Under the pieces are notes generated by a model, which was not told the origin of the DNA, ran no database searches, and was given only the letters and a program-made list of their open reading frames with translations. Source: Cordylochernes scorpioides (taxonomy: Eukaryota; Arthropoda; Arachnida; Pseudoscorpiones; Chernetidae). Taken from it: a DNA stretch of 64,000 bases. How positions within the stretch are numbered: the stretch's first letter is position 1; each line of letters starts with the position of its first letter. The translations under genes were made by a program, and so were the position numbers. Shown here piece after piece: positions 26,985 to 61,619 of the stretch. Location: assembly GCA_030710605.1 (NCBI GenBank), contig CP092863.1, forward strand, positions 116,626,680-116,690,679, read 5' to 3'.

Positions 26985-27730
26985 TTTGTAGCGAAGCGAA
27001 AATATAATTCGTTTGGTAAAAAAATATATACACTTTCTAGCAACTGGAATGATACAAATAGAATATTGTTAAGAATGATCACCTAGTATTTTTTTATTTT
27101 AATGAAGTTATTTTTAGAGTATCTTAACTCTGTGCCCCCCCCCAAAAGTAAATATTTATAAATTAACCTAATTTAGATAGCGCTAAGTAAATATAAGGCA
27201 TAATATGCAATAGCAATATATGAAAATTCGAAATTATTATAGACGCTTATGATTCTTTTTAAAAATTAAACAATTTCTACTGCCCTTACTGCGTCAATAA
27301 TAGTTTCGAATTTCCATAACAGATGGCGCGCTAATGCAATCATAATAGCCATATATATAACTTATATTTTAAATACCTTTTGAATTTTTCAAACATGATT
27401 TTTATTTGTATTTATTCTATTTTTCACTTAATTCACCAAAATGCACCCTATTAATCATTATTTATAGTTTTAAAATTATATATATGTTTATAGTCTCTTT
27501 TAGGAATTAAAAAAATAGTCAGATATATTACCTGTGTTTCAATTTAATACAAAATATGAATATTTCTATTATATATACCTGCGACAATGATAGTAAACAA
27601 CAGTTCTAGCTTTTATCCACGGCCATGCTTGTCTGAATTTGCGCTTGGGCATTCAGAAACAGATTAACGTGCTCTCATTCTTAGGAAGAGCCACAGACAG
27701 TGGATTACCTCCTCTTCAGCTTTCCTGAGA
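26985..27730. other. no feature recognised
   Basis: AT-rich. A piece near 27,230-27,290 resembles 350-420 (TTATGATTCTTTT and AATAAATTTTTT-like context), probably an unassigned repeat. Confidence 0.35.
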
Positions 27731-28994: not shown

Positions 28995-29275
28995 AAAAGC
29001 TCATGTGAGCGTGGTCAGGATATGTCTTTTTTTTTATTTTAATATCAAAATCTGATCTTTTTTTTTCACATGTTCAGCGTATTTTTTAATTTCTCAATAA
29101 GCCTCTGGGACTAAAATATTTTTGGTCGTTGAGGTACAGCCTGTACCACGCTGACGAAGGCCAACAGCCCGAAACGCGTTCGTGGTTGTTTTTTAATTGA
29201 TTTATCAAGAATATACAGTTCTTTTCATTTTTTTGTAATATCCTATTTATATTTTGTGAATATTTATACATTATA
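28995..29275 (+). repeat. hammerhead repeat, family 3, single diverged copy
   Basis: Aligns with the units at 57 kb: GAGCGTGGTCAGGATATGTC, TCACATGTTCAGCGTATTT, GGTCGTTGAGGTACAGCC, then the ribozyme and AATTGATTTATCAAGAATA. It is diverged from the 57-kb units but keeps the ribozyme core. Confidence 0.65.
29146..29185 (+). ncRNA. hammerhead ribozyme, family 3
   Basis: CCACG (stem I), CTGACGA core, stem II GGC/GCC around CAACA with an A-C pair below, GAA, self-complementary ACGCGT (stem III), T as cleavage-site base, CGTGG (stem I, perfect 5-bp match). Every invariant base is present although the rest of the repeat has diverged, which suggests selection on the motif before insertion. Activity is predicted, not shown. 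Confidence 0.75.
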
Positions 29276-29565: not shown

Positions 29566-29606
29566 GATTACTTTAAAGAAATTATAGCATCAAGAAAGTA
29601 TTCAAA

Positions 29607-32600
29607 ATGTCAAGCCTTTATCAAATAGAAAAATTAAATTCTGAAAATTTTGAAACATGGAAGATGCAAATGAAGATGATTCTAATTCATTCCGAACTTT
29701 GGGATTATGCAAATAGCATAAGGATCAAACCTGAAACCGAAGTAGAATCCAACGAATGGGAGAAGAACGACCAGAAGGCGCTAGCAACTATAGTCCTAAG
29801 TTTAAGTCCTCCAGAAATAATACACGTGAAGAGATGTAAAACTTCTGCAGAGGCATGGAAGCTTTTAAATGAAGTGCATCAGCCAAAAGGGCCTGCAACT
29901 AAGGTTTTCCTTACGAAACAGTTGATCCTCTTGAAAATGAAACCAAATGAAAGGATGCAGGATTATCTCAACAAATTTAGCAGCTTGGCTGACAAGTTGA
30001 GTGAAATGGATGCACAAGTCCCAGAAGACTTCCTTTCTATCCTTTTATTATGTAGCCTTCCAGAGAGTTATGAAGGATTCAGAACAGCGATAGAAACTAG
30101 GGACGAATTGCCGAACTTTGAAACTTTAAAAGTGAAAATGCTGGAGGAGGAAATTAGGCAAACTCAATTGAACGGCACAACTAATACCGAACAAGCTTTC
30201 CTTGGAAACCCAGAAAGAAAGAATTTTCCCAGCACATCAAAACCAAAGCCAAAGGGATTCCCATTTGGCTGCCACTTCTGTGGAAAAAAGGGGCATAAAG
30301 CTGCCGACTGCAGAAAAAGAAAGTCCAGGAACCCTAAAACTGAAATGGTTGCATCATTAGGAATCGAATGTTTGAACAAACTTGATGCAAACGAGTGGTG
30401 CTTGGATAGTGGTGCAACTGCCCACATGTGTAGCTCAAAGAAGTCATTCACTCATTTTGAAGACACTGCACCAATAAAAATTACACTGGCAGATGGTCAA
30501 TTCATTGAAGCTATAGGAAAGGGGAATGTAAAATTGGATTGTAAAACCAATACTGGAACTGTAACCCTATCCTTAGAAGATGTGCTGTTTGTACCTAGAT
30601 TAAATGGAAATCTGTTTTCTATCAGTAAGTGCACAAGTAGATTTAATATTGTAAATTTCAAGTACAGAAAGGCTGAAATAGTGAATTTGCATACAAAAAT
30701 TTGCATACAGGCCTATGAAAGGAATGGACTTTACATCTTAAGTCAAATTAATTGTCCAAAGGCATTAGCGACAAGAGAAATTTGCATATCTGGAGAGAAA
30801 AATTACGAAAAATGGCACAGTAGATTTGGTCATTTAAATTTACAAGATCTCAAAAAACTAAAAATGCAAAATATTGTATACGGCCTGCCAAATTTTGATG
30901 TTAAAAATTTTAACTGTGAAGTTTGTTTGAAAGGTAAACAAACACGGCTACCTTTTCAGAAAGAGTCTTTTACGAGAGCAAGGGAACCACTGGAGCTGAT
31001 CCATACTGATATTTGTGGTCCCATGAGAACAAAATCATTGGGTGGCGCCCTTTATTTTTTAACATTTATTGATGACTTCTCAGGATTTATCTTCACATTT
31101 ATAATGAAATCAAGAAGTGAAGTATTCAAAGGATTTAGAATATTCAAAAATTATGCTGAGAAGCAAACCGGAAAAAGGTTGAAATGTATCAGAAGTGATA
31201 ATGCGCCTGAATACCTTAGCAAAGAGTTCAAAGATTACCTAGAAGGAGAAGGTATAGGACGTCAGCTCTCTGTAGAATATACACCTCAACAGAACGGTGT
31301 CGCTGAAAGAGCGAATAGAACTCTACTGGATATGACTAGGTGCTTCATGATCGAAGGTGATTTACCTGAAACTTTATGGGCTGAATTGATACATACATCA
31401 ACTTTTATCAGAAATAGATGCCCGAGAAATAACGATTGTAAAACTCCACATGAGTTATTTACCAAAAGAAAACCTGTAGTTTCTCATTTAAAAATTATAG
31501 GAAGTAAATCGTTTGCCGTGAATAATAGGCCGAATAGATCTAAATTCGCACCTCGCAGTGAGGAATACAAGTTAATAGGGTATTTCACAGAATCTAAGGC
31601 ATACAGACTTTGGAAGCCTGGTACACGTACAATTATAAAAAGTAGAGATGTACGTTTTGTTGAACCAGAATTGTCCAAAATTAGGAATGAAGTCGTTGAA
31701 ATTGATGTTAGTTCAGAAAGGGCTTCTTTCAAGGAAATCCCTCTAGTTGAAGAAAAGGGAAGCACGTCCGAAGCTAAATCACAAACTGAAATTGAAAGTG
31801 AATCGGATCTAGAGATGTCTGATTTAGTGGACGAGCCGTCAGAAAGTGAAGTGGTCATTTCAAGAAGAGGAAGAGGACGACCAAGATATATTAGAACGGG
31901 AAAACCTGGCCGACCAAGAAAGGAGTACCCTACAGCCAATTTGTCAACGCAAGAACTTCTAGCGGCGAAATACTTGCCAGATCCAAAAGACGCAGAGGAA
32001 GCGCTGTCAGGAAGGGATTCTTATTTTTGGAAGAAAGCAATGGAGGAAGAGTTTGATTCCTTGATTGAGAACAAAACTTGGGAATTGGTTGATCCCCCTA
32101 AGAATCGAAACATCATAGGAACCAAATGGGTATTCAAAACGAAATGCAATAGTGATGGTTCTGTTGAGCGCCATAAGGCTCGCCTGGTAGCAAAAGGCTA
32201 TTCACAGCAGTACGGAATAGACTACGAGGAAACTTTTGCCCCAGTAGTGCGCCAAAGTACTATTAGAATGTTTTTAGCCTTGGCTGTTGAATACAACTTG
32301 ATACTCCATCAGATGGACGTTCAATCTGCTTATTTAAATGGAGAAATTAAAGAAGAAATTTTCATGACACAGCCGGAAAACTTCGTCTCAAGAAAATATC
32401 CAGAGAGAGTATGTCGACTCAAGAAGGCCATTTATGGGTTAAAACAAGCTGGAATAGTTTGGCATGAAAAGCTCGACAATGAATTAAAGAATTTGGGACT
32501 GAAGCAACTTCAATCTGACAATTGTGTCTATATCAAGCATGATGAAGGTATTCTCCTGGTGGCAATCTATGTTGATGATCTGATAATTGCGGCTGAAAGA

Positions 32601-33524
32601 GAAGACACGTTGAAATCCTTTAAAGAAAGTATGAAAAGGATATTCAAAATAAAAGATCTTGGAGGGATAAATTGTTGCCTGGGTATAAGGATACAAGTGA
32701 AAGAGGATGGTTCAATATCCATAGATCAAGAGAGATATATTGAAGAACTTCTGGCGAAATATAGAATGAAAGAGGCAAAGCCTATTTCTACACCCATGGA
32801 CTCGAACTCCAAGTTAACAAAAATTTCATCTATAGAAGGTGAGAATGAGCCAGTGAAAAAGGTAGAATACCAATCACTGATTGGATCATTGATATATCTC
32901 TCAGTGTCGACAAGGCCCGATATAGCCTATGCAGTTAGTGCTTTGGGACAGTTCAGTAATGATCCTAGGAGACAGCACTGGAATGCTGCCAAGCGTGTCC
33001 TCCGCTATTTGAAAGGCACCTCATGTTTGAGGATTACCTACAGGAAATCTAATGAGGCTCTTCATGGTTATGTCGACGCTGATTGGGGTGGAAACCTCGT
33101 GGATAGAAAATCTCATACGGGAATTGTTTACTTTTTGGCAAGAGGTCCAATAGCCTGGGAATCGAAGAAGCAGCAGACTGTCACTCTTTCGAGCACAGAA
33201 TCTGAGTACATCGCACTTTGTGAAGCAGGAAAGGAGGCAGTCTACCTTAGAGCGCTGTTGGACGAGATGGGATTTGGTGAATTGCTGAATGGACCGACTG
33301 TTCTGAAGACGGATAACCAGGGTGCTCAACAGCTGGCGAGAAATCCGGTTTATCATGCCAGAACTAAGCATATTGACATCAAATGGCATTACATCAGAAG
33401 CATTTGCAGCGATGGACTTGTCGAGGTCGTCCACACACCAACCCAAGAAAATGTTGCCGACATCCTTACTAAAGGCCTACCAAGGTTTTTGTATGAAAAA
33501 CACGTCACTGGATTTGGAATGTAG
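29607..33524 (+). CDS. Copia element 1 Gag-Pol polyprotein, intact, 1305 aa
   Basis: One uninterrupted frame encodes the full Copia order: UBN2-type Gag (from ENFETWKMQMKMILIHSELW), CCHC knuckle at about residue 222 (CHFCGKKGHKAADC), protease with DSG at about 267 (CLDSGATAHMC), GAG-pre-integrase (HSRFGHLNLQDL), integrase core with D, D and E in HTDICGPM, IRSDNAPEY and QNGVAERANRT (465-575), reverse transcriptase from ETFAPVVRQ to YVDDLII (about 870-990), and RNase H (DADWGG, STESEYIAL, to about 1290). Integrase before RT separates Copia from Gypsy. With near-identical LTRs and no stop, it looks recently mobile. Gag and Pol are in one frame, as in Drosophila copia, where a spliced mRNA supplies extra Gag; here that is inference. 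Confidence 0.95.
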   Translation: MSSLYQIEKLNSENFETWKMQMKMILIHSELWDYANSIRIKPETEVESNEWEKNDQKALATIVLSLSPPEIIHVKRCKTSAEAWKLLNEVHQPKGPATKVFLTKQLILLKMKPNERMQDYLNKFSSLADKLSEMDAQVPEDFLSILLLCSLPESYEGFRTAIETRDELPNFETLKVKMLEEEIRQTQLNGTTNTEQAFLGNPERKNFPSTSKPKPKGFPFGCHFCGKKGHKAADCRKRKSRNPKTEMVASLGIECLNKLDANEWCLDSGATAHMCSSKKSFTHFEDTAPIKITLADGQFIEAIGKGNVKLDCKTNTGTVTLSLEDVLFVPRLNGNLFSISKCTSRFNIVNFKYRKAEIVNLHTKICIQAYERNGLYILSQINCPKALATREICISGEKNYEKWHSRFGHLNLQDLKKLKMQNIVYGLPNFDVKNFNCEVCLKGKQTRLPFQKESFTRAREPLELIHTDICGPMRTKSLGGALYFLTFIDDFSGFIFTFIMKSRSEVFKGFRIFKNYAEKQTGKRLKCIRSDNAPEYLSKEFKDYLEGEGIGRQLSVEYTPQQNGVAERANRTLLDMTRCFMIEGDLPETLWAELIHTSTFIRNRCPRNNDCKTPHELFTKRKPVVSHLKIIGSKSFAVNNRPNRSKFAPRSEEYKLIGYFTESKAYRLWKPGTRTIIKSRDVRFVEPELSKIRNEVVEIDVSSERASFKEIPLVEEKGSTSEAKSQTEIESESDLEMSDLVDEPSESEVVISRRGRGRPRYIRTGKPGRPRKEYPTANLSTQELLAAKYLPDPKDAEEALSGRDSYFWKKAMEEEFDSLIENKTWELVDPPKNRNIIGTKWVFKTKCNSDGSVERHKARLVAKGYSQQYGIDYEETFAPVVRQSTIRMFLALAVEYNLILHQMDVQSAYLNGEIKEEIFMTQPENFVSRKYPERVCRLKKAIYGLKQAGIVWHEKLDNELKNLGLKQLQSDNCVYIKHDEGILLVAIYVDDLIIAAEREDTLKSFKESMKRIFKIKDLGGINCCLGIRIQVKEDGSISIDQERYIEELLAKYRMKEAKPISTPMDSNSKLTKISSIEGENEPVKKVEYQSLIGSLIYLSVSTRPDIAYAVSALGQFSNDPRRQHWNAAKRVLRYLKGTSCLRITYRKSNEALHGYVDADWGGNLVDRKSHTGIVYFLARGPIAWESKKQQTVTLSSTESEYIALCEAGKEAVYLRALLDEMGFGELLNGPTVLKTDNQGAQQLARNPVYHARTKHIDIKWHYIRSICSDGLVEVVHTPTQENVADILTKGLPRFLYEKHVTGFGM

Positions 33525-35647: not shown

Positions 35648-36742
35648 TCAGGTAGAGTGAAGTCCAGGTCTTTTATGTCTTGGATTGAGGTCTCCATCAA
35701 ATTGGAACAATTCTTGTATAACTGGATTTTGGGAAGTAGAGAGTTTTAGATATAATTTCTGGGTCGAGGATATGTATATTTCTTCTATATTAGGCTGGTT
35801 TAAGTCTTGCTTTAAAATTGCATTTGATAGATTAAATGGGGCATTTACAGTACTTCTTAAACAAATTCTCATGAATGCATCTATTCTTTTCCTATCAGTC
35901 AAGGTTATGTATTTAAACCATACAGGCAATGCGTATGTTACTATAGGGAGAATACAGCTTCTGTATAAAGTAAATTTTTGGTTAACAGATAAACCACTTT
36001 TTGAACTGAACATATTGGATAATGAGGCTTTGGCTATTTTAGATTTTCTTATTATATCCTTCACGTGGCTGGTGAATTTCAGTTTAGTATCGAAAGTGAC
36101 TCCCAAATATTTGACCTGCTGGGTCCAATTTATGGGAGATGAGTAAATTATAAGATTTGTCCTGGGTGTGAACTTGAAGCTATTTCGTTGAGGAAAGATA
36201 ATTGCTTGAGATTTCTTTGGATTCAGATTGAGTTTCCATTTATCACACCAATTGCAAATGATTTCAAGATAGTTTTGAAGGCGGTAAATTAAAATATCTG
36301 GGGAACGCGAGCTGGATAACAGGGGAGTATCATCAGCGAAAAGAGCTAGTCGGCATTGTGGGATATGTGGAATATCATTGATGTATGGATTGAAAAGTAT
36401 AGGACTCAATATTGAACCTTGAGGAACACCAGATTCTATTTGCCGAGGACTTGATATATATGTTCCAACTTTTACGGAGAACGTTCTATCCTGAAGATAA
36501 TTCTTCAGGAACCTGATGAATTTCTGAGGAAAATTATAAGAAGTTAATTTAATGATGAGGCCTCTGTGCCAAACCATATCGAAAGCTTTTTTTAAAGTCT
36601 AAAAGCACTACTCCAACAGCTTCGCTAAGGGATTTGCGAGTTTGTATGAAATCAATAACGGTAATCAATTGGTGAGTTGTTGAATGATTTGCTCTAAACC
36701 CAAATTGCTGTGGAATTAGAACATTTCTTGTATCTATATAGG
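35648..36742 (-). pseudogene. Jockey-like LINE ORF2, C-terminal RT part
   Basis: Encodes the second half of the reverse transcriptase: QIESGVPQGSILSPILFNPY, the catalytic LALFADDTPLL (FADD box), NLNPKKSQAIIF and thumb region to RHKRPGLH. Upstream, the 36,580-36,742 segment encodes the preceding RT stretch (IPQQFGFRANHSTTHQ, LLDFKKAFDMVWH), but one extra A in an A7 run shifts the frame at about 36,585. Confidence 0.8.
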
Positions 36743-37352
36743 CTCAATATTCTACAAAGATACATCCCCCTAATTATTAGAACGGCAACCGATCAGTCCT
36801 TGCAGCTGGATTATGTAAGAATAAGAAAATCAGTGCTCTACTCTCACTATAAATACTTTCATTCATCACCTACAATGGAATGCTATCTTAATGACAATAT
36901 CCCCCTAACCTTAAAGAGAATCATTGCACAAGTAAGAAGCCTTTTTGCAGTACAGAGAATTAATCATGTTCCACTTTTGAAAACTAAGACCATAAAATGC
37001 ACCTTATGCAACGGTGAATTTAGTCTCGATTTTCCACACTACATGTTCTACTGTACGGCAATGGAAGAAGAGAGAGAAATTCTTCGTCAAGAGACCGGCT
37101 ACAATAGCAATTCGCCTTATGTTTTAATGGCAAAAGTCGTAAAATCCAGACCCTTTGCATTCGCTTTTTATAAATACTGGAAATCAGCTCAATCAAAATA
37201 TTTAGCACAGACACCGGATCCAACTCGATAATTGGTCGAGGTCAATACCCAATATTTGTATATAACTATGATGCTAATTTGTTATTTATTTATTTTGTCC
37301 TACCGGGAGAATCCTGTATGGCACGTGTGCCTAATAAAGGCTTTTGTTGTTG
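36743..37352 (+). mobile_element. 5'-truncated LINE tail inserted in the Jockey-like LINE
   Basis: On the opposite strand. Encodes an ORF2 C-terminus with RIIAQVRSLFAVQRINHVPL and the Cys/His cluster KCTLCNGEFSLDFPHYMFYC, stop at about 37,229, then a 3' UTR ending AATAAAGGCTTTTGTTGTTG. Exact 15-bp duplications TTGTATCTATATAGG flank it (36,728-36,742 and 37,353-37,367). The 3' tail is (TTG)n instead of poly-A. Confidence 0.85.
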
Positions 37353-38898
37353 TTGTATCTATATAGGTCTGGAGTCTTTTAAGGATGATCCGCTCAAATA
37401 TTTTTCCAAATATCGGCAAGAGACTAATTGGCCTAAAATCATCCAGGGATTTAGATAAATGCTTTTTTGGTATGGGAATAACTATAGCATGCTTCCATAT
37501 CTTTGGAAAGTAGCAAAGATTAATAGATGCATTGAAAATGCTAGTTAAAAATACAACCCATTTTAAAGGTAGGTTTTTGATTAATTTGGTAGTTATTTCA
37601 TCGTGACCAGGCGCCTTGTTTGCAGAAAGTTTTGTTATTTCTTGTTTTACTTCTTGTGGTGATGTAAGTTTCAAAATATTTTCGTTGTTATCAAGAGTCA
37701 TTCGAGTTTCATTTAAGGTTGGATGATTTGTTAGGGCTTCTTTTGAAACTATGGAAAAGTGTTTTGAGAAATGAAATGCCAAAGCCTTGCCAATTTCTTC
37801 ATCTGAATGTAGAATATCACCATCTACGTTAATATTTTTAATTTCCGATTTTTTTCGAGTAGACTTCACTAGTCTCCAGAAGGTGTTTGGAGTATTTAAC
37901 GCGCTGTTGATAAGATCATTTTGACTTTGCTGGTTGTACTTTTGTAATATAATATTCACTTTCTTTTGAAAATGTAGATAAATTTCTCTGTGTCTGGGGG
38001 TCCCATGTTGACTGCCATTTCTTTCTAGCTTTATTCTTTTCTCTGATAATGTTTTTAATAAAAATAGGCACATGCGGTTTAACTATGGGAGAAACTATTG
38101 TATTTTTAGAATAAGTATTAAGAATGGTTTTGTTGAGGGTTCCAATTTCAAGATCAATATTTATAGTAGAATTTAAAGGGGATCTGGGAGGTGGATTATT
38201 GATTAAATCTTGCTGAAAATATATCCAGTTTGTGTTCTTATTTACTTTCATAGAAAAATCATATTTAGGACATGCCAGCCTTAAAACTACAGGTAAGTGA
38301 TCAGAAGATAATGCATCTACTGTGGTAATTTCAAAATTCCACGGCACATTTTTGAAAACCGCAAGTCCAAGAAGTCAGGATGACCAATATGACTGTAGTG
38401 AGTAGCCAAGGAAGGAGCTATTATGTCCAACCCTGCAGATTCCGAAAACTCATAAAGAACCATTCCACTCTGATTACTTTTACTAGAGCCCCATAATGGA
38501 TGTTTGGAGTTCCAGTCTCCTGCAGCGATGACAAGATTATTTTGAAATAATTTACTCAAATCCTCACATTTCAATAGTTGATCTGGTTTGCGATAAACAG
38601 AAGAAATTTGCAGGCTGTTTTTTCCATCAGGTTTAAATACTATAGTAGTATTTTCCAAATAATCAGTCTTAACAATAAGCTTTCTATACTTGAAGAAATT
38701 TCTGAGGATAATAGCCGTTCCTCCTCCTCTCCCAATAAGACGGTCCATCCTAATAACGTCGTAATTTCTAAGATTAAGAGTTTTAGAATTTTTCAAATGA
38801 GTTTCTGAGATTAGTGCTATATCGATTTCATTATATTCCAAAAAATAGAGTAGTTCATCTTTTTTAGTTAAAATTCCATTGGAATTCCAGATTACCAA
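37353..38898 (-). pseudogene. Jockey-like LINE ORF2, endonuclease and N-terminal RT
   Basis: Begins with the apurinic-type endonuclease: NSNGILTKKDELLYFLEYNE, DIALISETHL, then AAGDWNSKHPLWGS (catalytic D and N) and SSDHLPVV (the SDH motif near the end). The RT part has NKAPGHDEITTKLIKNLPLK, DDFRPISLLPIFGKIFERII and stops at the inserted LINE. Frame changes near 38,350 and 38,000 break it into three frames, so no active enzyme can be made. Confidence 0.8.
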
Positions 38899-38917
38899 TT
38901 TTAAAATATATTTATAT

Positions 38918-40144
38918 TCATTTTAGAACTTCGCCAATAATGCTTAATAGCTTTTCGCAAATAGTTTTAATATTTTGATTAGCAAAGTTTTGTTTCGATA
39001 CACTTGCATAACTAGGCTTAAAAGTACTTTCCTGCACTGCGCTGTTGTCTTTGGTAACATTGCTATGAATATATGAAGATACCTTGGGAATTTGTGGTCG
39101 TTGGTTAAGAGACTGGTTGGGAATTTTTGGGAACGCAGGGCAGCCACGATAATTGGCCGTGTGAGCTTTCCCGCAGTTTACACACTTGGGTGAATATTGC
39201 TTCGTTTTTTTCGGGCAATCTTTGGTATGATGAGCTTCGGCGCATTTGACACATTTAGGTTTTAGAAAGCAATTCAATTGCCCATGGCCAAACCCTTGAC
39301 AATTGAAACATTGGGTGACCTTTTTGGGAGATCTGAAGGCTTCAACGACCACTTTCTGGTACAGCAGGTCAGTCAGATTATAAATATTCTTGTTGGAATC
39401 ATATTTTGGAAGTTCAACAAGAACTATGTTCATTGCCTGCTTTGACGATTGGCGGTGAAGCCTTTTTACCGAGGCCTCTTTAAAGCCTAAGTGGGATAAT
39501 TCAACTGCAATGTCTTCAATTTTAAAACTGGTTGAAACGCCTTTTATGACTACCTTTAAAGGTTTTTCTTCTTGTAATTTATAGGAGTAGTCGCCGTTAT
39601 TTAAACGAACATATTCACGGATCTTTTTGAAGTCTCCTATATTCTTAGCTTTGATAATATGCTTAGGTCCTGATATGGTGGCTTGGAATGGTTCATCAGC
39701 TAAGTTGTTTAGTTCTTTACAAAGCAATTTCCAATCGTTCACATTTTCAACAATAACAGGAGGAATTCTGATTTTTCTACTCTTTGGGACATCACACCAA
39801 GGTCCTTCCTCATCGTGACCCTCCTCCACTTCGTCCAAATCATTTTTATTATTACGGCTCTGATTGTCTAATTGAATTCTAGGATTCTTTGGATTTTCTT
39901 CATCATCAGAGGATGAAATGCAATTTTCTTTTGATTGTCGTTGTCGTTTTCGTGCAGTAACTGCCTCATCTTCAAAAACATATGGGATTTGACAACGATC
40001 TAAAATTTGTTTTAAAAGCGTGGCATCAATTGTGCATACTTTTTCTCCATTCAGGCCTTTTTTAGTTTTTATATAAATTGGAGTCAGGACTTCTGATTGT
40101 TCTATTTCTTCCGCCCATAATAATTTCCTGTTATCATTAGACAT
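38918..40144 (-). CDS. Jockey-like LINE ORF1 protein, intact, 408 aa
   Basis: The Gag-like RNA-binding protein of the element. Residues about 180-270 form the RRM-like PRE_C2HC region (ISGPKHIIKAKNIGDFKKIR, LKVVIKGVSTSF). Then come three CCHC knuckles: CFNCQGFGHGQLNC, CVKCAEAHHTKDC and CVNCGKAHTANYRGC. The N-terminus is acidic and low in order (SSDDEENPKNPRIQL, DEVEEGHDEEGPW). No stop or frameshift, unlike ORF2. Confidence 0.85.
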   Translation of the reverse strand: MSNDNRKLLWAEEIEQSEVLTPIYIKTKKGLNGEKVCTIDATLLKQILDRCQIPYVFEDEAVTARKRQRQSKENCISSSDDEENPKNPRIQLDNQSRNNKNDLDEVEEGHDEEGPWCDVPKSRKIRIPPVIVENVNDWKLLCKELNNLADEPFQATISGPKHIIKAKNIGDFKKIREYVRLNNGDYSYKLQEEKPLKVVIKGVSTSFKIEDIAVELSHLGFKEASVKRLHRQSSKQAMNIVLVELPKYDSNKNIYNLTDLLYQKVVVEAFRSPKKVTQCFNCQGFGHGQLNCFLKPKCVKCAEAHHTKDCPKKTKQYSPKCVNCGKAHTANYRGCPAFPKIPNQSLNQRPQIPKVSSYIHSNVTKDNSAVQESTFKPSYASVSKQNFANQNIKTICEKLLSIIGEVLK

Positions 40145-40468
40145 TTTTTATATATTTACTTATTTAAAGAAAAGAAAACAATTTGAATTTAAATTTTGAG
40201 GAGGAAACAAATCCCTTGCATCCTTGTTGGCTCGTGCACGCGCATTTATAATTGTCTCGATCATTTTAACGACCTCCAACCCATTATTATTATTATTTAA
40301 ATAAAAAAAAAATCAATCTAAAACATAACACGTAAATGCTATACTTTATATCAACCTCAAACTGTTGGGAATCTCTTATGGTTCAGACAATGAAACAACA
40401 AATAACAAGTTTACTTACAGCTGAAGTGGTTTTAAAAGAATTAGGCGATTTTACCTTTTATGAAAGTA

Positions 40469-41392
40469 CTAGACGAATGGCCCGGGCAACGCCCGGGTTT
40501 TACCCGAGTGCGAATATATTTTAAAAACGTTGTCTTGGGTGGTCGCTATAGACAGGGTGGTCTGTATAGACAGGTGTATGTATCACACAGCCGATAACAG
40601 GGTTGTCTAGAGTGGCCGCTATAGACAGGGTGGTCTGTATAGACAGGTGTATGTATCACACAGCCGATAACAGGGTTGTCTAGAGTGGCCGCTATAGACA
40701 GGGTGGTCTGTATAGACAGGTGTATGTATCACACAGCCGATAACAGGGTTGTCTAGAGTGGTCGCTATAGACAGGGTGGTCTGTATAGACAGGTGGATGT
40801 ATCACACAGCTGATAACAGGGTTGCCTAGAGTGGCCGCTATAGACAGGGTGGTCTGTATAGACAGGTGGATGTATCACACAGCTGATAACAGGGTTGTCT
40901 AGAGTGGCCGCTATAGACAGGGTGGTCTGTATAGACAGGTGTATGTGAGTGGCCGCTATAGACAGGGTGGTCTGTATAGACAGGTGTATGTATCACACAG
41001 CCGATAACAGGGTTGTCTAGAGTGGCCGCTATAGACAGGGTGGTCTGTATATACAGGTGTATGTATCACACTGCTGATAACAGGGTTGCCTAGGGTGACC
41101 GCTATAGACAGGGTGGTCTGTATAGACAGGTGAATGTAACACACTAATGATAACAGGGTTGCCTAAGGTGACCGCTATAGACAGGGTGGTCTGTATTGAC
41201 AGGTGGATGTATCACACAGCTGATAACAGGGTTGTCTAGAGTGGCCGCTATAGACAGGTGTAGGTATCACACAGCTGATAACAGGGTTGTCTAGAGGGGG
41301 GCAGGGAGGTCACGTGTTCGCCGGCGGCAGCCAATGGGCGCGCATTCTATCCGTGAACGGTGACGGTGAGCTTCAGAATAAGGCAATTATAT
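40469..41392 (-). mobile_element. Helitron carrying a minisatellite, inside the Copia LTR
   Basis: CTAG at 40,469-40,472, then ACGAATGGCCCGGGCAACGC is a Helitron A-type 3' end on the minus strand. The rest is mostly the 73-bp tandem array. The right end (TCCGTGAACGGTGACGGTGA, CTTCAGAATAAGGCAATT) is also found near 33,915-33,955 in the split Helitron. The exact 5' junction is unclear. Confidence 0.65.
40535..41295. repeat. 73-bp minisatellite, about 10 copies
   Basis: The unit contains GTGGCCGCTATAGACAGGGT, GGTCTGTATAGACAGGTG, TATGTATCACACAGCCGATA and ACAGGGTTGTCTAGA. Starts at 40,612 and 40,685 give a 73-bp period; a few units are shortened. The CTATAGACAG motif occurs twice per unit and is like the ends of the S-family MITE. 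There are no unique spacers, so it is not a CRISPR array. Confidence 0.9.
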
Positions 41393-48580: not shown

Positions 48581-48584
48581 ATAC

Positions 48585-49500
48585 TATACGAATGCACGTC
48601 TTACGGACGGACCTAGAACGACAACCAGTTAAAATAATTTTTATTATAATTTTATCAGTATATCATTAGACGATATACTATACGAATGCACGTTCTACGA
48701 ACGGACATAGAACGAAAGCCAGTCTTAATAAGAATTTTTATTATCATTTTTATTAGTATATCATTAGACGATATACTATACGAATGCACGTCCTACGAAC
48801 GGACCTAGAACGAAAGCCAGTCTTAATAAGAATTTTTATTATCATTTTATTAGTATATCATTAGACGATATACTATACGAATGCACGTCCTACGAACGGA
48901 CATAGAACGAAAGCAAGTCTTAATAATAATTTTTATTATAATTTTATCAGTATATCATTAGACGATATACTATACGAATGCACGTTCTACGAACGGACAT
49001 AGAACGAAAGCCAGTCTTAATAATAATTTTTATTATCATTTTATTAGTATATCATTAGACGATATACTATACGAATGCACGTCCTACGAACGGACCTAGA
49101 ACGAAAGCAAGTCTTAATAAGAATTTTTATTATCATTTTATTAGTATATCATTAGACGATATACTATACGAATGCACGTCCTACGAACGGACATAGAACG
49201 AAAGCAAGTCTTAATAATAATTTTTATTATAATTTTATCAGTATATCATTAGACGATATACTATACGAATGCACGTTCTACGAACGGACATAGAACGAAA
49301 GCCAGTCTTAATAATAATTTTTATTATCATTTTATTAGTATATCATTAGACGATATACTATACGAATGCACGTCCTACGAACGGACCTAGAACGAAAGCA
49401 AGTCTTAATAAGAATTTTTATTATCATTTTATTAGTATTAATAGACGATATACTATACGAATGCACGTCCTACGAACGGACCTAGAACGACAGCCAGTTC
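48585..49500. repeat. 97-bp satellite, about 9.5 copies, trimeric higher-order repeat
   Basis: The unit starts CGATATACTATACGAATGCA, then CGTCCTACGAACGGACCTAG, AACGAAAGCCAGTCTTAATA, and a T/A-rich part. Unit starts lie at 48,671, 48,769, 48,866, 48,963, 49,060, 49,157, 49,254, 49,351 and 49,445. Variants recur every third unit: CGTTCTACG appears at 48,671, 48,963 and 49,254, and TTTTATCAG ends the third unit of each set, giving a 291-292 bp higher-order period. The first and last units are the most diverged. Confidence 0.92.
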
Positions 49501-50510
49501 TAATAATATATAATAATTTGAATTATTATTAGCCTCAATTTATACGATTGTCGCTAACTACAGTGAAAGATTCGAACGTAAAACTGACGTCACCGTGGCG
49601 TGGATGTACGATAGATATCTTTGACTGAGAGACAGTTATCTATCTCACGAATACGAGGGATGTTGTTCTCATTTCAATAATCTTGTTACAAGATCACTTT
49701 ATTAAGCGCCTCTCAAAAAGAGCAACCTAGTTTATGATATTTGCAAAAATGAATAATAAGTGAAGTTTATTTACATATTAAAACAAAATTTTAACGCGGA
49801 TTTAATCCCGGTTCATGACTGTCGGGAATCGAGGGTGTTACCCACTGGTCCACCGACTTCTTTTCCAATAAATCCCCACCCAGCCTTCATAACATTTCAA
49901 ATAGAATACCACAATGGGATCTTTTTTTATTTCAGTTAGTTAGTCTTTATCGCGGTTTTTAGCGCCTTTGATCCTATGAACTAATTTAGAGATTTTCTCT
50001 TTGGATTCATCTAGCAATTAGGCTTTTCTTTTCTCCAACAAGGAGAATTTCCTTTCTGTTTTTTTTTTATGTGGTCGCATTTGGATGGTATTAGACAATG
50101 ATTTATATTTAAAAATCTCCTTGATAATATGTATTGCGGGTTTTGATATTTTTTCTGCCATTTATCAATATGTGTCTTCCACACGTGTCCTATTACTTGA
50201 TGTTGTCCAATTGATGGATGCATTTTAATGAATCGTTCCAATAGCCCTTATGTTTGGGAGCCTGGATACACCATCAAGAATGATTCACAAATAAAAAAGA
50301 GCCTCTTTGATCATATCATTTGAGAAGAGATAAGCATTCGAGGTGACTCTTTTCAGCAGGCCGTTCTAACACTATGAGGTACAGTAAGAAAGGGGTCTAA
50401 ATACGATTAAATTACAATTTACATAGTGGATATTATATAACAATAATAATGTAAATGTTATTAATATGATAAAATAAACTAAAATGGTCAAATATCACTA
50501 ACCTAGTATT
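49500..50510. other. no gene seen; one tRNA-like scrap
   Basis: No coding feature supported. On the minus strand at about 49,795-49,862, TCGGTGGACCAGTGGGTAAC and a weak B-box-like GGGATTAAATCC suggest a decayed tRNA-derived fragment. A 76-codon frame at 50,011-50,241 has no recognisable domain. Confidence 0.35.
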
Positions 50511-53329: not shown

Positions 53330-54245
53330 GGTTTTACGGGCGAAGATTTTACGTGACAACGGTAGAATATTTATTGATATGAATATAATTAAATTGCACA
53401 ATAGGAACAAGGAATTGAATGAAAATAAGAATTGCACAAATTTTAACTATAGAAATATATTTTGTTTACTAAAAACATTGTACATGTAAACTTAAACTTA
53501 GCTAATTCCTATTTGAGTGATTTTGTTGAGGATAGGACGATGATAGGAGAAATATGAAATGAAAGGAAGTGTTTCTGCTGTAATGTGTCTTGCGAAAGTC
53601 AAGTCGATAGTTGTTCCTTTTAACGTAGTTGACTTAGAAACGTTTGTATTTGTAATTTTAAAGAATAAATTCGAAAATCAAAACATTTATTCAGATCGAA
53701 GGTTCAAATTTTTGCTAAATAAATTTGAAACTATTTAAAATTTGTAAAATAATAATTAATTAATTAATTAATTTTAAACTAATAATTTACTTAACACTAT
53801 CAACATTTATCAATAGTATGACATAAACCTATAAACTCAGTTTCTCAACTTTTGTTGTCAATCTAACAATTAATCAATCAATCATAGTTTACGATAATGA
53901 AATATCAGTGTACAATTATTTACCTTTATTGTTTAGTTGTTGTAAATGACGAATCTAAGCACTCCACATTTTCACTACAGACACAGCTGACGATACTTTA
54001 ACCACACGTGTGAACTTGTATTATGACGCTTTCTTGTTTTTCCAACGCCAAGAACGTTCGAGAAAGACAAAGACAGAGACAAGCATGCGCCGATTCAATG
54101 CGCCTAATTCTCTAGCGCTGCGCGCGCAGCTGCGCGCGCAGCACTCTCGTTCGATGACTCATCGTAACGTTACCGGGCGTTACACTTTTTCATAAGTGAC
54201 TCCCAGCCGCAACCTAATTTAAGACGTTGTCACGTCAATAAAAGA
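53330..54245. other. no gene recognised; CG-rich palindrome at 54,118-54,143
   Basis: AT-rich body between two unusual blocks, GTCGGTTTTACGGGCGAAGA at the left and GTTACCGGGCGTTACACTTT at the right, which may be ends of one element of about 0.9 kb (inference). Just inside the right end is a 26-bp CTGCGCGCGCAG direct and inverted duplication. Confidence 0.35.
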
Positions 54246-54520
54246 AGACATATCTTGACCATGAGCACATGAGCTTTTTTAGATGGCAGAGCGCCATCTA
54301 GTGGAACAGAAATCAATTAAACGTTGGTTTAGCCTGTTCCTAGGTATTAGGCCAACCCATTTTCTTGATAAATCAAGGAAAGTCAACCACGAACGCGTTT
54401 CGGGATGTTGGCCCTCTTAGCGTGTGTGGTGCAGGCTGTACCTCAACGACCTTTCTTGAGAAATCAAGAAATAGGTATTTAAGGCCAAAACTTGAGTAAA
54501 TACGATTTTTTCACACACAC
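54245..54520 (-). repeat. hammerhead repeat, family 3, single diverged copy
   Basis: TCTTGACCATGAGCACATGA, GCAGAGCGCCATCTAGTGGA, TTAGCCTGTTCCTAGGTATT, the ribozyme region, then CTTGAGAAATCAAGAAATAG. Same order as the 57-kb units. Confidence 0.7.
54387..54429 (-). ncRNA. decayed hammerhead motif, family 3
   Basis: The GAAACGCGT half and the CGTGG stem strand are intact and stem II reads GGCCAACATCC, but the core is CTAAGAG instead of CTGANGA. Likely inactive. Confidence 0.5.
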
Positions 54521-56571: not shown

Positions 56572-56953
56572 GATTTTATTTATTTATCCACTTTGTACAA
56601 ATTACATTACATAGGTGATGCAATGACACAGATTAATCATGCGCATAATTATTTATAGATGTGTCTCTATATACAACATGGACAATCTTGTTATTAAGTT
56701 ATCTACACAATATGAGGTTGTTGTTTTAAATTACCATATATATATTATTATATGAAAAAACGAAAGAAAAAAATAAAAGATAAAAAGATCAGGTATTGAA
56801 ATCAATATTAAATATGCATATCCTGACCAGGAGCACAAGTGCTTTACAGAAGGCAGAGCGCCATCTGGTGGAACAGAAATCAACTAATCATTGATTTAGC
56901 CTGTTCCCTGATATTTGGCCAACCCAATTTCTTGATAAATCAAGAAAAGCCAT

Positions 56954-56993
56954 CCACGAACGCGTTTCGCGCTTTTGGCGCTCGTCAGCGTGG
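56954..56993 (-). ncRNA. hammerhead ribozyme, family 3, unit 1
   Basis: CCACG, CTGACGA, stem II GCGC/GCGC with loop CAAAA, GAA, ACGCGT, T, CGTGG. Perfect 5-bp stem I and 4-bp stem II; stem III is the palindrome ACGCGT, which on one molecule leaves almost no loop, so cleavage is expected to be best as a dimer. Confidence 0.85.
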
Positions 56994-57304
56994 AGTAGGC
57001 TGAACCACTGCGACCAAAAAATAATTTTTGGTCCCAATGGCTTCTTGAAAAACCAAGAAATGGGTATATTAAGGCCAAACTTGCGTAAATACGCTTAGCA
57101 CATGAAAATCGAAAGAAAAAAATAAAAGATAAAAAGATCAGGTATTGAAATCAATATTAAATATGGCATATCCTGACCAGGAGCACAAGTGCTTTACAGA
57201 AGGCAGAGCGCCATCTGGTGGAACAGAAATCAACTAATCATTGATTTAGCCTGTTCCCTGATATTTGGCCAACCCAATTTCTTGATAAATCAAGAAAAAG
57301 CCAT

Positions 57305-57344
57305 CCACGAACGCGTTTCGCGCTTTTGGCGCTCGTCAGCGTGG
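57305..57344 (-). ncRNA. hammerhead ribozyme, family 3, unit 2
   Basis: Identical 40 nt to unit 1. Confidence 0.85.
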
Positions 57345-57487
57345 AGTAGGCTGAACCACTGCGACCAAAAAATAATTTTTGTCCTGACCAGGAGCACAAG
57401 TGCTTTACAGAAGGCAGAGCGCCTGGTCAAAGTCAGAGTCCTGGTCAGGACAAAAATTATTTTTTGGTCGCAGTGGTTCAGCCTACT

Positions 57488-57527
57488 CCACGCTGACGAG
57501 CGCCAAAAGCGCGAAACGCGTTCGTGG
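57488..57527 (+). ncRNA. hammerhead ribozyme, family 3, unit 3
   Basis: Identical 40 nt, opposite strand to units 1 and 2. Confidence 0.85.
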
Positions 57528-57837
57528 ATGGCTTTTCTTGATTTATCAAGAAATTGGGTTGGCCAAATATCAGGGAACAGGCTAAATCAATGATTAGTTG
57601 ATTTCTGTTCCACCAGATGGCGCTCTGCCTTCTGTAAAGCACTTGTGCTCCTGGTCAGGATATGCCATATTTAATATTGATTTCAATACCTGATCTTTTT
57701 ATCTTTTATTTTTTTCTTTCGTTTTTTCATGTGCTAAGCGTATTTACGCAAGTTTGGCCTTAAATACCCATTTCTTGGTTTTTCAAGAAGCCATTGGGAC
57801 CAAAAATTATTTTTTGGTCGCAGTGGTTCAGCCTACT

Positions 57838-57877
57838 CCACGCTGACGAGCGCCAAAAGCGCGAAACGCGTTCGTGG
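57838..57877 (+). ncRNA. hammerhead ribozyme, family 3, unit 4
   Basis: Identical 40 nt, 350 bp after unit 3. Confidence 0.85.
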
Positions 57878-58164
57878 ATGGCTTTTCTTGATTTATCAAG
57901 AAATTGGGTTGGCCAAATATCAGGGAACAGGCTAAATCAATGATTAGTTGATTTCTGTTCCACCAGATGGCGCTCTGCCTTCTGTAAAGCACTTGTGCTC
58001 CTGGTCAGGATATGCCATATTTAATATATTATTATATATCAACTATATTAATTAAATCAAATACCTAAACACTTTTTGCCATCACACACACTTTTTGCCT
58101 GTAGTTTATGTGTTACTTCTGTATTGCTATTCTAGGGCACTTCTAATATTTATTATTGATGTAC

Positions 58165-59473
58165 TTTCAGTATGAAGGAAAATTGGGAATTTCAACAATG
58201 GTATTTAAACTGAAATTTTTTGCAAGTAAAAATTAAAATATCCGAATGAAATTTGACACAGTAGTAGATAAAAGGATATAGTTTTTATTTATTCAATGTA
58301 GTTTCCATTATTAGCTACAACAGTCTCGAGGCGAGTGCGGAATGAAGCACAGGCCTTGGCGACGATGACCTTGTCCATTTGGGTCATCACCGTGTGAACT
58401 GCTTTCTTGACAGACTGGATGGTGGTATGAGGAGCTTTGTTGACATCTCTCTCAACAACGCCCCATACATAGTAGTCGAGGGGATTGCAATCTGGAGAAT
58501 TAGGGGGCCAAATATCAGGACCCCAGTGACTAGGGACGTTAAGTGTCAGCCACGATTGTGTCTTTTTTGCCTTATGGGCTGGAGCTGAGTCCTGTTGGAA
58601 GACATACTTCCTTCCTGCGGCCACCATGTCCATCCAAGGCTTCACAACGGTCTCCAGAACATTGATGTAGGTGTCAGCGTTCATCCTAAGGCCCTTCTCA
58701 AAGAAATGGGGAGGCATGACATCACCTTCACTGCTGATAACGCCAAGGACCATTACGGAGGCAGGAAATTTCGTGTGCATCACGACAGGTATCTCTGAGG
58801 GGTCTTTACAGATCCAGCGATCATTCCTGGGATTTTCCTTTTGGTCCACGTCAAAGTTCTTTTCGTCAGAGAAGAACCTTAGCATGCCAAAAGAGTCGTG
58901 TTTCAGGTTGTTGAGGAGGGCAGCAGCCTTTCCTTTTCTGTTATTCTTCATATTCTCAGTCAGCAACTGACCTTTCCGAAGGGCATAAGACTTGAGACCA
59001 AGGTCCTCATGGATAGTTCTGACAATTGTCATAGAGCCAACGTCCATTTCCTTGGCTATGGCCCTCATGCTCTTCCCAGGGTTTCCATCAATCTTCTCCT
59101 TGACATTTTTGACAAATTCTTCGCCTCTTACCCTGTCCGATCGACGCGAGTGCTTTTTCCTTGTAGCTATCCCCTCTTTGTTACTGTCGGCCTCATCAAA
59201 CTGCTTCTTGACACGATAAATAGTGGTTTTGGGCAACTTAATAAAATCCACTATCTCTTTGGGGCTCCTTCCGGCGCGCAGAGCAACGATGATGGCAGCT
59301 CGATTTTCAAATTCTCGGTTACTCTTCATCACTACACTGCGCACACATGTACTGTTGCATTTTACATGAATATGGCTACGTAATGAAAAAAAAAAAAACA
59401 AGTTTTTAATCTCAAGTAGTTTTTGTTTTATGGACTGTCAAAGTTAGTCCCAATTTACCTGGTACACCCTGTA
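58165..59473 (-). mobile_element. Tc1/mariner element, DD37D (maT-like), about 1.3 kb
   Basis: The right end reads CCAATTTACCTGGTACACCC and TGTA (reverse: TACAGGGTGTACCAGG then AAATTGGGA). The left end has CAGTATGAAGGAAAATTGGGA. The shared GGxAAATTGGGA supports imperfect terminal repeats; the exact left end is uncertain. One gene inside. Confidence 0.65.
58289..59329 (-). CDS. mariner-like transposase, DD37D, intact, 346 aa
   Basis: Cuts and pastes the element at its terminal repeats. Start at 59,329 (MKSNREFENRAAIIVALRAG), because the 24 codons upstream are low-complexity. N-terminus: helix-turn-helix PAIRED-like domain (SPKEIVDFIKLPKTTIYRVK, then a second helix set SMRAIAKEMDVGSMTIVRTI) with basic linker KKHSRRSD. 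Catalytic triad: D in FFSDEKNFDVDQ, D in YVFQQDSAPAHKAKK, and the third D in NSPDCNPLDYYVWG. I count 37 residues between the last two, so DD37D, as in the maT group. Length is normal and no stop or shift is present, so the protein may be functional. Confidence 0.9.
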   Translation of the reverse strand: MKSNREFENRAAIIVALRAGRSPKEIVDFIKLPKTTIYRVKKQFDEADSNKEGIATRKKHSRRSDRVRGEEFVKNVKEKIDGNPGKSMRAIAKEMDVGSMTIVRTIHEDLGLKSYALRKGQLLTENMKNNRKGKAAALLNNLKHDSFGMLRFFSDEKNFDVDQKENPRNDRWICKDPSEIPVVMHTKFPASVMVLGVISSEGDVMPPHFFEKGLRMNADTYINVLETVVKPWMDMVAAGRKYVFQQDSAPAHKAKKTQSWLTLNVPSHWGPDIWPPNSPDCNPLDYYVWGVVERDVNKAPHTTIQSVKKAVHTVMTQMDKVIVAKACASFRTRLETVVANNGNYIE

Positions 59474-60975: not shown

Positions 60976-61227
60976 ATTTTAACACAAGCTTAACATATTT
61001 ACAGTTTAACATACTTATTTTGGTGAAAAGAAATTATACATCTTGGGTATTATGCAAATTATGACAAATTTTTATTTACCAAAGTGGGTCACTTAGAAAG
61101 GTGGATGTTCATAGGAAGTGTGTTGTTTTACTATATATATTATTTTTTGAGTATTTATAACTACAAATATGTAAAAATGTTTGGGATATACATATTTGGA
61201 ATTTTTTATACAAATATATTCATACAT

Positions 61228-61552
61228 AGAAGCACAGGACGCCTCTCCCGTCAAAATAAACGTCAAAACCTGACGTCATCTATTGACCGTCGCCGCAAAC
61301 TAGTGGCCTCGGGTCGGTGACAAAGCCACAACACCAGCTTTGGCAAACTGAGAAGCGTCCACCTAGAGACCATGGTTTCGGGCTAATGGCCCTCGTCAGT
61401 CTAGGGCGGACACAGGATCTAATGGAATCTTCACAATCTACCAAAGAGGTGTTTTGCTGGCAAGAGACCGACCCGAGGCCGCTAGTTTGCGGCGACGGTC
61501 AATAGATGGCGCCAGGTTTTGACTGGAGAGGTGCCCTGTGCTTCTATGGATC
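61228..61552. repeat. hammerhead repeat family 4: long palindrome around a ribozyme
   Basis: The left arm (GAAGCACAGGACGCCTCTCC, ATCTATTGACCGTCGCCGCA, AACTAGTGGCCTCGGGTCGG) returns in reverse at 61,470-61,552 with few differences (arms about 90 bp). Between them lies one hammerhead. Confidence 0.75.
61362..61405 (-). ncRNA. hammerhead ribozyme, family 4
   Basis: CCTAGA (stem I), CTGACGA, stem II GGGC/GCCC around CATTA, GAA, palindrome ACCATGGT (stem III), C as cleavage-site base, TCTAGG (stem I, perfect 6 bp). All invariant residues present. Different in every stem from family 3, which argues against chance. Confidence 0.8.
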
Positions 61553-61619
61553 AATTTCCTCTCGGCAAATTTTCCATCAAATATATTTATTTGAGTCAAA
61601 ATATTATCCATTAAATATA

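Follow-up and report, generated by a model that had tools for sequence, protein, structure and literature searches.

How did four hammerhead ribozymes (HHRs) come to lie in two mirror-image tandem arms at a single locus of the pseudoscorpion Cordylochernes scorpioides, and may this mirror-image form hint at which enzyme copies such elements? We analysed a window of 64,000 nucleotides (contig CP092863.1, positions 116,626,680 to 116,690,679), within which all coordinates are given. A first-pass annotation had placed an inverted pair of tandem dimers at 56815-58028, with the dimers facing each other. Our analysis corrected these limits to 56752-58027, an insert of 1276 bp built from a 350-nt unit with a G+C content of 0.40 (40%). 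The arms are tandem and inverted, as had been claimed, but they are head to head and diverge from one centre; on the ribozyme strand their 5' ends meet there, the left arm reading leftwards and the right arm rightwards. Each arm is only a partial dimer (351 + 279 nt and 350 + 227 nt), and the measured unit spacings of 350 and 351 agree with the period of 350-351 bp given before. The 69-nt centre had no place in the earlier description. The inner right unit, R1, served as the reference for unit positions.

56752-57030, minus strand, outer partial unit of the left arm (L2), 279 nt
57031-57381, minus strand, inner unit of the left arm (L1), 351 nt
57382-57450, no strand, centre between L1 and R1, 69 nt
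57382-57393, part of the centre, near-palindrome TCCTGACCAGGA, 12 nt
57394-57423, part of the centre, 30 nt of unit sequence
57424-57438, part of the centre, 15-nt filler
57439-57450, part of the centre, TCCTGGTCAGGA, 12 nt, complement of TCCTGACCAGGA, which occupies the corresponding place in the left arm
57451-57800, plus strand, inner unit of the right arm (R1), 350 nt
57801-58027, plus strand, outer partial unit of the right arm (R2), 227 nt

Each of these units carries one type I HHR.

56953-56994, minus strand, type I HHR in L2
57304-57345, minus strand, type I HHR in L1
57487-57528, plus strand, type I HHR in R1
57837-57878, plus strand, type I HHR in R2

The core motif CTGACGAGCGCCAAAAGCGCGAAA has exact copies at 56965-56988 (-), 57316-57339 (-), 57493-57516 (+) and 57843-57866 (+); a search that tolerated as many as three mismatches gave 6 matches in the window and 0 in 100 shuffles. 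All four units read CCACG CTGACGA GCGC CAAAA GCGC GAA ACGCGT T CGTGG, and the whole motif, including a stem I of 6 bp, a stem II of 4 bp, ACGCGT and T, is identical in 4/4 HHRs. Hence the annotated four identical type I HHRs, with stems I and II and the catalytic core intact, were confirmed. An independent, loose type I descriptor found 5 HHRs in the window, versus 5 in 100 shuffled windows together (distributed over 4 of them). Among the findings that would refute it, the first-pass annotation had named the lack of a covariance-model hit above threshold. At the Rfam gathering score that is indeed the outcome, as no hammerhead was found in the window, but in a relaxed search HH9 was the best hammerhead match for each of the four HHRs, scoring 30.8-31.3 bits where the cut-off is 52 (E from 1.5e-5 to 2.1e-5 for the 1.4 kb searched), with overlapping matches of the same clan omitted. 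Helix I carries an internal loop and an outer AGCC/GGCT stem, both of which align with the HH9 model. The relaxed search also returned mir-1972, mir-249, snR86, KRAS_3UTR and ceN126; these matches all span the centre and were taken as effects of the inverted repeat.

Helix III consists of ACGCGT and can form at most one base pair closing CGCG. For this reason, cleavage is likely to take place in dimeric form, as reported for amphibian retrozymes (PMC7229834). In the folding calculations a single HHR reached -18.3 kcal/mol with helix III open and -12.2 kcal/mol with helix III formed, while two molecules sharing a 6-bp ACGCGU helix reached -43.9 kcal/mol versus twice -19.7 for two separate minimum folds; the cofold minimum (-46.5) is a structure other than the double hammerhead. 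We read these energies as favouring cleavage by pairs of molecules. The circular monomer is predicted to fold at -113.8 kcal/mol, compared with -76.8 +/- 4.8 kcal/mol for shuffles (z -7.7, sense), with helix III open and the core partly mispaired. Folding alone is no proof of function: the antisense circle is nearly as stable (z -7.5), and the HHR segment by itself does not exceed its shuffles in stability (z -1.1).

Metazoan non-LTR retrozymes are described as tandem non-coding units of 170-400 nt (350-390 bp in mussels) with a G+C content below 50%, a type I HHR, target repeats longer than 4 bp and self-paired circles (Cervera and de la Pena 2020, PMC7229834), and the insert resembles them in each of these respects. 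Its units of 350/351 bp with a G+C of 0.40 fall within the range of about 150-450 bp and below 50% that we applied; its flanking repeat has 13 nt, where more than 4 bp is expected when a repeat is present; the predicted circle is highly self-paired in both senses; and the type I HHR has an intact core and helices I and II, at scores below Rfam gathering. Multiple dispersed copies in the genome would be expected of such an element; the 64-kb window holds two further, decayed ones. The insert is without apparent protein, and 56752-58027 gave no match to reverse transcriptase or GIY-YIG endonuclease. On the basis of unit size, tandem units, G+C, flanking repeat, stable circular fold and HHR type, the sequence supports the insert as a new member of the metazoan non-LTR retrozymes. 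The element is thus of a known kind, and what is unusual is its mirror-image insertion, together with the bearing that this may have on the helper enzyme. In the accessible text of PMC7229834 and related literature we found no description of head-to-head inverted dimers for retrozymes, which does not prove that none exists. A plant LTR retrozyme was rejected, as that class has type III HHRs, 600-1000 bp units and a 4-bp repeat, versus type I, 350 bp and 13 nt here. The pDo500 satellite of Dolichopoda cave crickets (about 500 bp, about 5% of one genome; PMC2837043) is a comparable insect repeat; its HHR was proposed to act in single and double modes, and compensatory stem II changes were described. 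It differs in being a satellite and in its double form, which has an intramolecular helix III and intermolecular stems I and II (PMC2837043).

The earlier description also lacked the two decayed copies and a fifth HHR belonging to another family (see below).

About 28996-29211, plus strand, copy A, decayed single copy of the insert's family, HHR core kept except for a mismatch at the base of stem II
About 54235-54507, minus strand, copy B, decayed single copy of the insert's family, 75-81% identity, HHR core damaged

Stem II reads AGGC/GCCC in copy A, GGGC/TCCC in copy B and GCGC/GCGC in the insert. Between the two copies and the insert, the second stem II pair changes from G-C to C-G, with both sides changed and pairing kept. 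The covariation count, which rests on only 4 rows, one of them (row D) in our judgement one base out of register along the 3' strand of stem I, was reached by 7 of 500 shuffles, and we relied only on the stem II pair with the two-sided change. Copies A and B and the two arms of the insert end at differing unit positions, as expected if circular or tandem RNA was copied from varying points. No target repeats were found by eye for copies A and B.

Around the insert itself, a 13-nt repeat was found.

56741-56753, no strand, left copy of the flanking repeat TATATTATTATAT, its last 2 nt overlapping the unit
58025-58037, no strand, right copy of the flanking repeat, its first 3 nt overlapping the unit

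The repeat is low-complexity AT, and the insertion target is AT-rich. Matches of 13 or more were obtained at 13 of 20000 random point pairs in the whole window and at 30 of 5000 random pairs of AT-rich points. The repeat is probably a target-site duplication.

The centre and the ends of the arms bear on how the mirror image arose. In both arms unit position 210 is joined to position 1, so that 140 nt are missing internally, beside the 12-nt near-palindrome, and the right arm continues past this deletion join by only the 12 nt of TCCTGGTCAGGA. Perfect inverted arms of 98 nt enclose a spacer of 45 nt there. At the turn CCTGGTCA occurs twice, at 57422 and 57440, and the filler at 57424-57438 has no word of at least 7 nt in common with the unit. 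The outer ends are unequal, lying 52 nt apart in the unit, with the right arm stopping short. The two arms were said to be identical, which holds for their HHRs but not quite for the arms: L1 and R1 differ by 1 substitution and 3 gap columns in 352, L1 and L2 by 1 substitution and 3 gap columns in 281, and L2 and R1 by 1 gap column in 281, with no differences between R1 and R2. Recent activity had been read from this identity; near-identity of the arms may stem from a single copying event, and it therefore dates the insertion at most, not ongoing activity.

We consider it somewhat probable (roughly 55%) that 56752-58027 is one animal non-LTR retrozyme insertion whose mirror arm was formed by fold-back of the cDNA. 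Multimeric retrozyme transcripts would be cut into monomers by HHRs working in pairs, and the monomers would be ligated into circles by the host. A staggered cut in AT-rich DNA would supply the primer for a borrowed reverse transcriptase, which would copy the RNA in circular or multimeric form. The cDNA, primed on the left, would have skipped 140 nt after nearly two units, run 42 nt further, turned back on itself at the near-palindrome TCCTGACCAGGA and served as its own template for a head-to-head mirror arm, which would fall 52 nt short of the first arm at its outer end. An identical internal deletion lies beside the near-palindrome in both arms, and the right arm passes the deletion join only by the near-palindrome itself; for these reasons fold-back during reverse transcription probably produced one arm as a copy of the other. 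The doubled CCTGGTCA, as if priming had been tried twice, also counts for fold-back. Against it, the differences between the arms fall only in L1 and L2, so that fold-back requires their later origin, and no Penelope element was seen in the window. A Penelope-type helper would be the weakest step of the model.

The main rival to fold-back is two-sided (twin) priming, in which each of the two cut target strands would prime reverse transcription of a single retrozyme RNA, at internal sites that lie 52 nt apart, and the resulting cDNAs would be joined at the near-palindrome. Twin priming by L1 elements is also able to invert sequence. In support of this route, the insert's right end (unit 227) is near the point where copy B has its 3' end (unit about 226-230), and the anole Penelope protein acts on both target strands, cutting and extending them, and has two adjacent internal starts (PMC11167929). 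However, with the same deletion in both arms, the RNA itself must already have carried it, and the end of the right arm exactly at the 12-nt near-palindrome would be a coincidence, and we regard twin priming as a less likely, if serious, explanation. The annotation had also named Penelope terminal repeats next to animal retrozymes, and of these the retrozyme is supported and the Penelope terminal repeat is less likely. As terminal repeats or a non-autonomous derivative of a Penelope-like element, the insert would account for its minimal helix III, tandem units, inverted arms and AT-rich target, all of which are Penelope features; no Penelope-type domain was found in the 60 ORFs scanned out of 83, and helix I, through its internal loop and outer stem, is like that of the canonical HH9 model. 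We hold such a derivative to be improbable, although one locus does not separate it sharply from a retrozyme.

Origins at the DNA level fit less well. A tandem dimer that was inserted normally and later underwent an inverted duplication would explain the perfect 98-nt inverted arms around a 45-nt spacer, but the 13-nt repeat lies on either side of the complete structure; a fold-back DNA transposon, or any DNA transposon with terminal inverted repeats, should have matching ends, whereas the outer ends here differ by 52 nt; and an ordinary satellite is at odds with only two units per arm. We consider this group of explanations very improbable. A sequencing or assembly artefact in the form of a palindromic chimera could be suspected because three of the four columns that distinguish L1 from R1 are gaps, two of them in T-runs, as in sequencing errors. 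A chimera would mirror one flank, however, and here the two flanks have only the short repeat in common and the arms stop at different points of the unit, which leaves an artefact hardly credible.

Returning to the proposed fold-back insertion, we asked what it may say about the helper. For the reverse transcriptase that moves animal retrozymes, LINEs and Penelope elements have been named as candidates (PMC7229834). Rotifer Penelope elements have head-to-head inverted arms with palindromes where the inverted copies meet, a 31-bp tail that one of the arms may carry, target repeats of 8-10 bp and AT-rich targets; their authors read the inversions as self-priming of RNA on an antisense template, not as cDNA fold-back (PMC3846280). 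The anole Penelope protein prefers AT-rich ATT sites (PMC11167929). The insert shares with such insertions the head-to-head arms, junction palindrome, one longer arm and short target repeat (PMC3846280), as well as the AT-rich target and minimal HHR (PMC3846280, PMC11167929), although its target repeat has 13 nt as compared with 8-10 bp (PMC3846280). Penelope HHRs are described as lacking helix III or loop contacts, and helix III of the insert is likewise minimal, whereas a stable helix III is described for most invertebrate HHRs (PMC7761336). Penelope-like elements encode a reverse transcriptase and a GIY-YIG endonuclease, neither of which is matched in the insert, and no ORF with both was found among the 60 of 83 window ORFs of at least 80 aa that were scanned, where no GIY-YIG (Penelope-type) match was listed. 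The signature of inverted and tandem repeats, junction palindrome, short target repeat and AT-rich target was found at one locus only, and this likeness is suggestive only as a hint to the helper.

It is conceivable, albeit doubtful, that animal retrozymes are integrated by Penelope machinery, with this insert as a fingerprint of the process and read-through hairpins as a silencing brake. If so, the fingerprint would comprise a circular RNA copied from a staggered AT-rich cut, fold-back at a palindrome, an inverted multimer, unequal ends and a target repeat. Transcribed inverted copies would then yield long hairpins in which the ribozymes are paired up, leading to small-RNA silencing of the family as a built-in brake. 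An inverted, palindrome-centred insertion would record how the cDNA was made, and a genome-wide count of such insertions would directly test the Penelope model.

The statement that no helper reverse transcriptase is present was too broad for the window, which contains LINE (RVT_1) and copia (RVT_2) reverse transcriptases. Its other contents are as follows.

29577-33524, plus strand, copia-type element, one open ORF of 1315 codons with gag, integrase and reverse transcriptase domains
35648-40147, minus strand, LINE with matches to PRE_C2HC gag, endonuclease and reverse transcriptase, its second ORF broken up among several frames
40529-41258, tandem array, 73-bp unit
48581-49508, tandem array, 97-bp unit, 9.6 copies, 94% matches
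58289-59437, minus strand, transposase-like ORF, 382 codons, matching DDE_3 and HTH_23, next to the retrozyme insert

The window also holds tRNA genes, and short ORFs with WD40 and presenilin matches. Together with the copia, LINE and DDE_3 transposase ORFs, these mark the sequence as apparently eukaryotic and probably animal. Outside the window, two HHR patterns gave 0 matches in viral contigs and the 350-nt unit gave no match in plasmids; a loose HHR pattern matched two stretches in prokaryote contigs (Mycobacterium and a Planctomycetaceae record), which is about the chance level (our estimate being 1-2).

The fifth HHR of the window lies in an element that is unrelated to the retrozyme unit.

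61218-61578, minus strand, element D, rod-like, outer limits uncertain
61362-61405, minus strand, type I HHR of element D, intact core

Stem II of this HHR reads GGGC/GCCC and its helix III is the palindromic 8-nt ACCATGGT; beyond the HHR core no likeness to the 350-nt unit was detected. Element D is nearly self-complementary throughout and forms a near-perfect rod (z -18.8 when folded as a circle), and the minimum of its predicted cofold (-59.4) does contain the shared 8-bp helix III. A weak candidate for its target repeat has 22 nt at 73%, and a third copy resembling it lies close by. The presence of two unrelated HHR families in only 64 kb suggests that elements of this kind abound in the host. 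As a minor observation, AGATGGCGC, which we take to resemble the CTCF core motif, occurs 8 times in the window versus 0.09 expected; 6 of the 8 occurrences fall in HHR elements (54291, 56858, 57208, 57615, 57965 and 61504), and the others are at 27321 and 60155.
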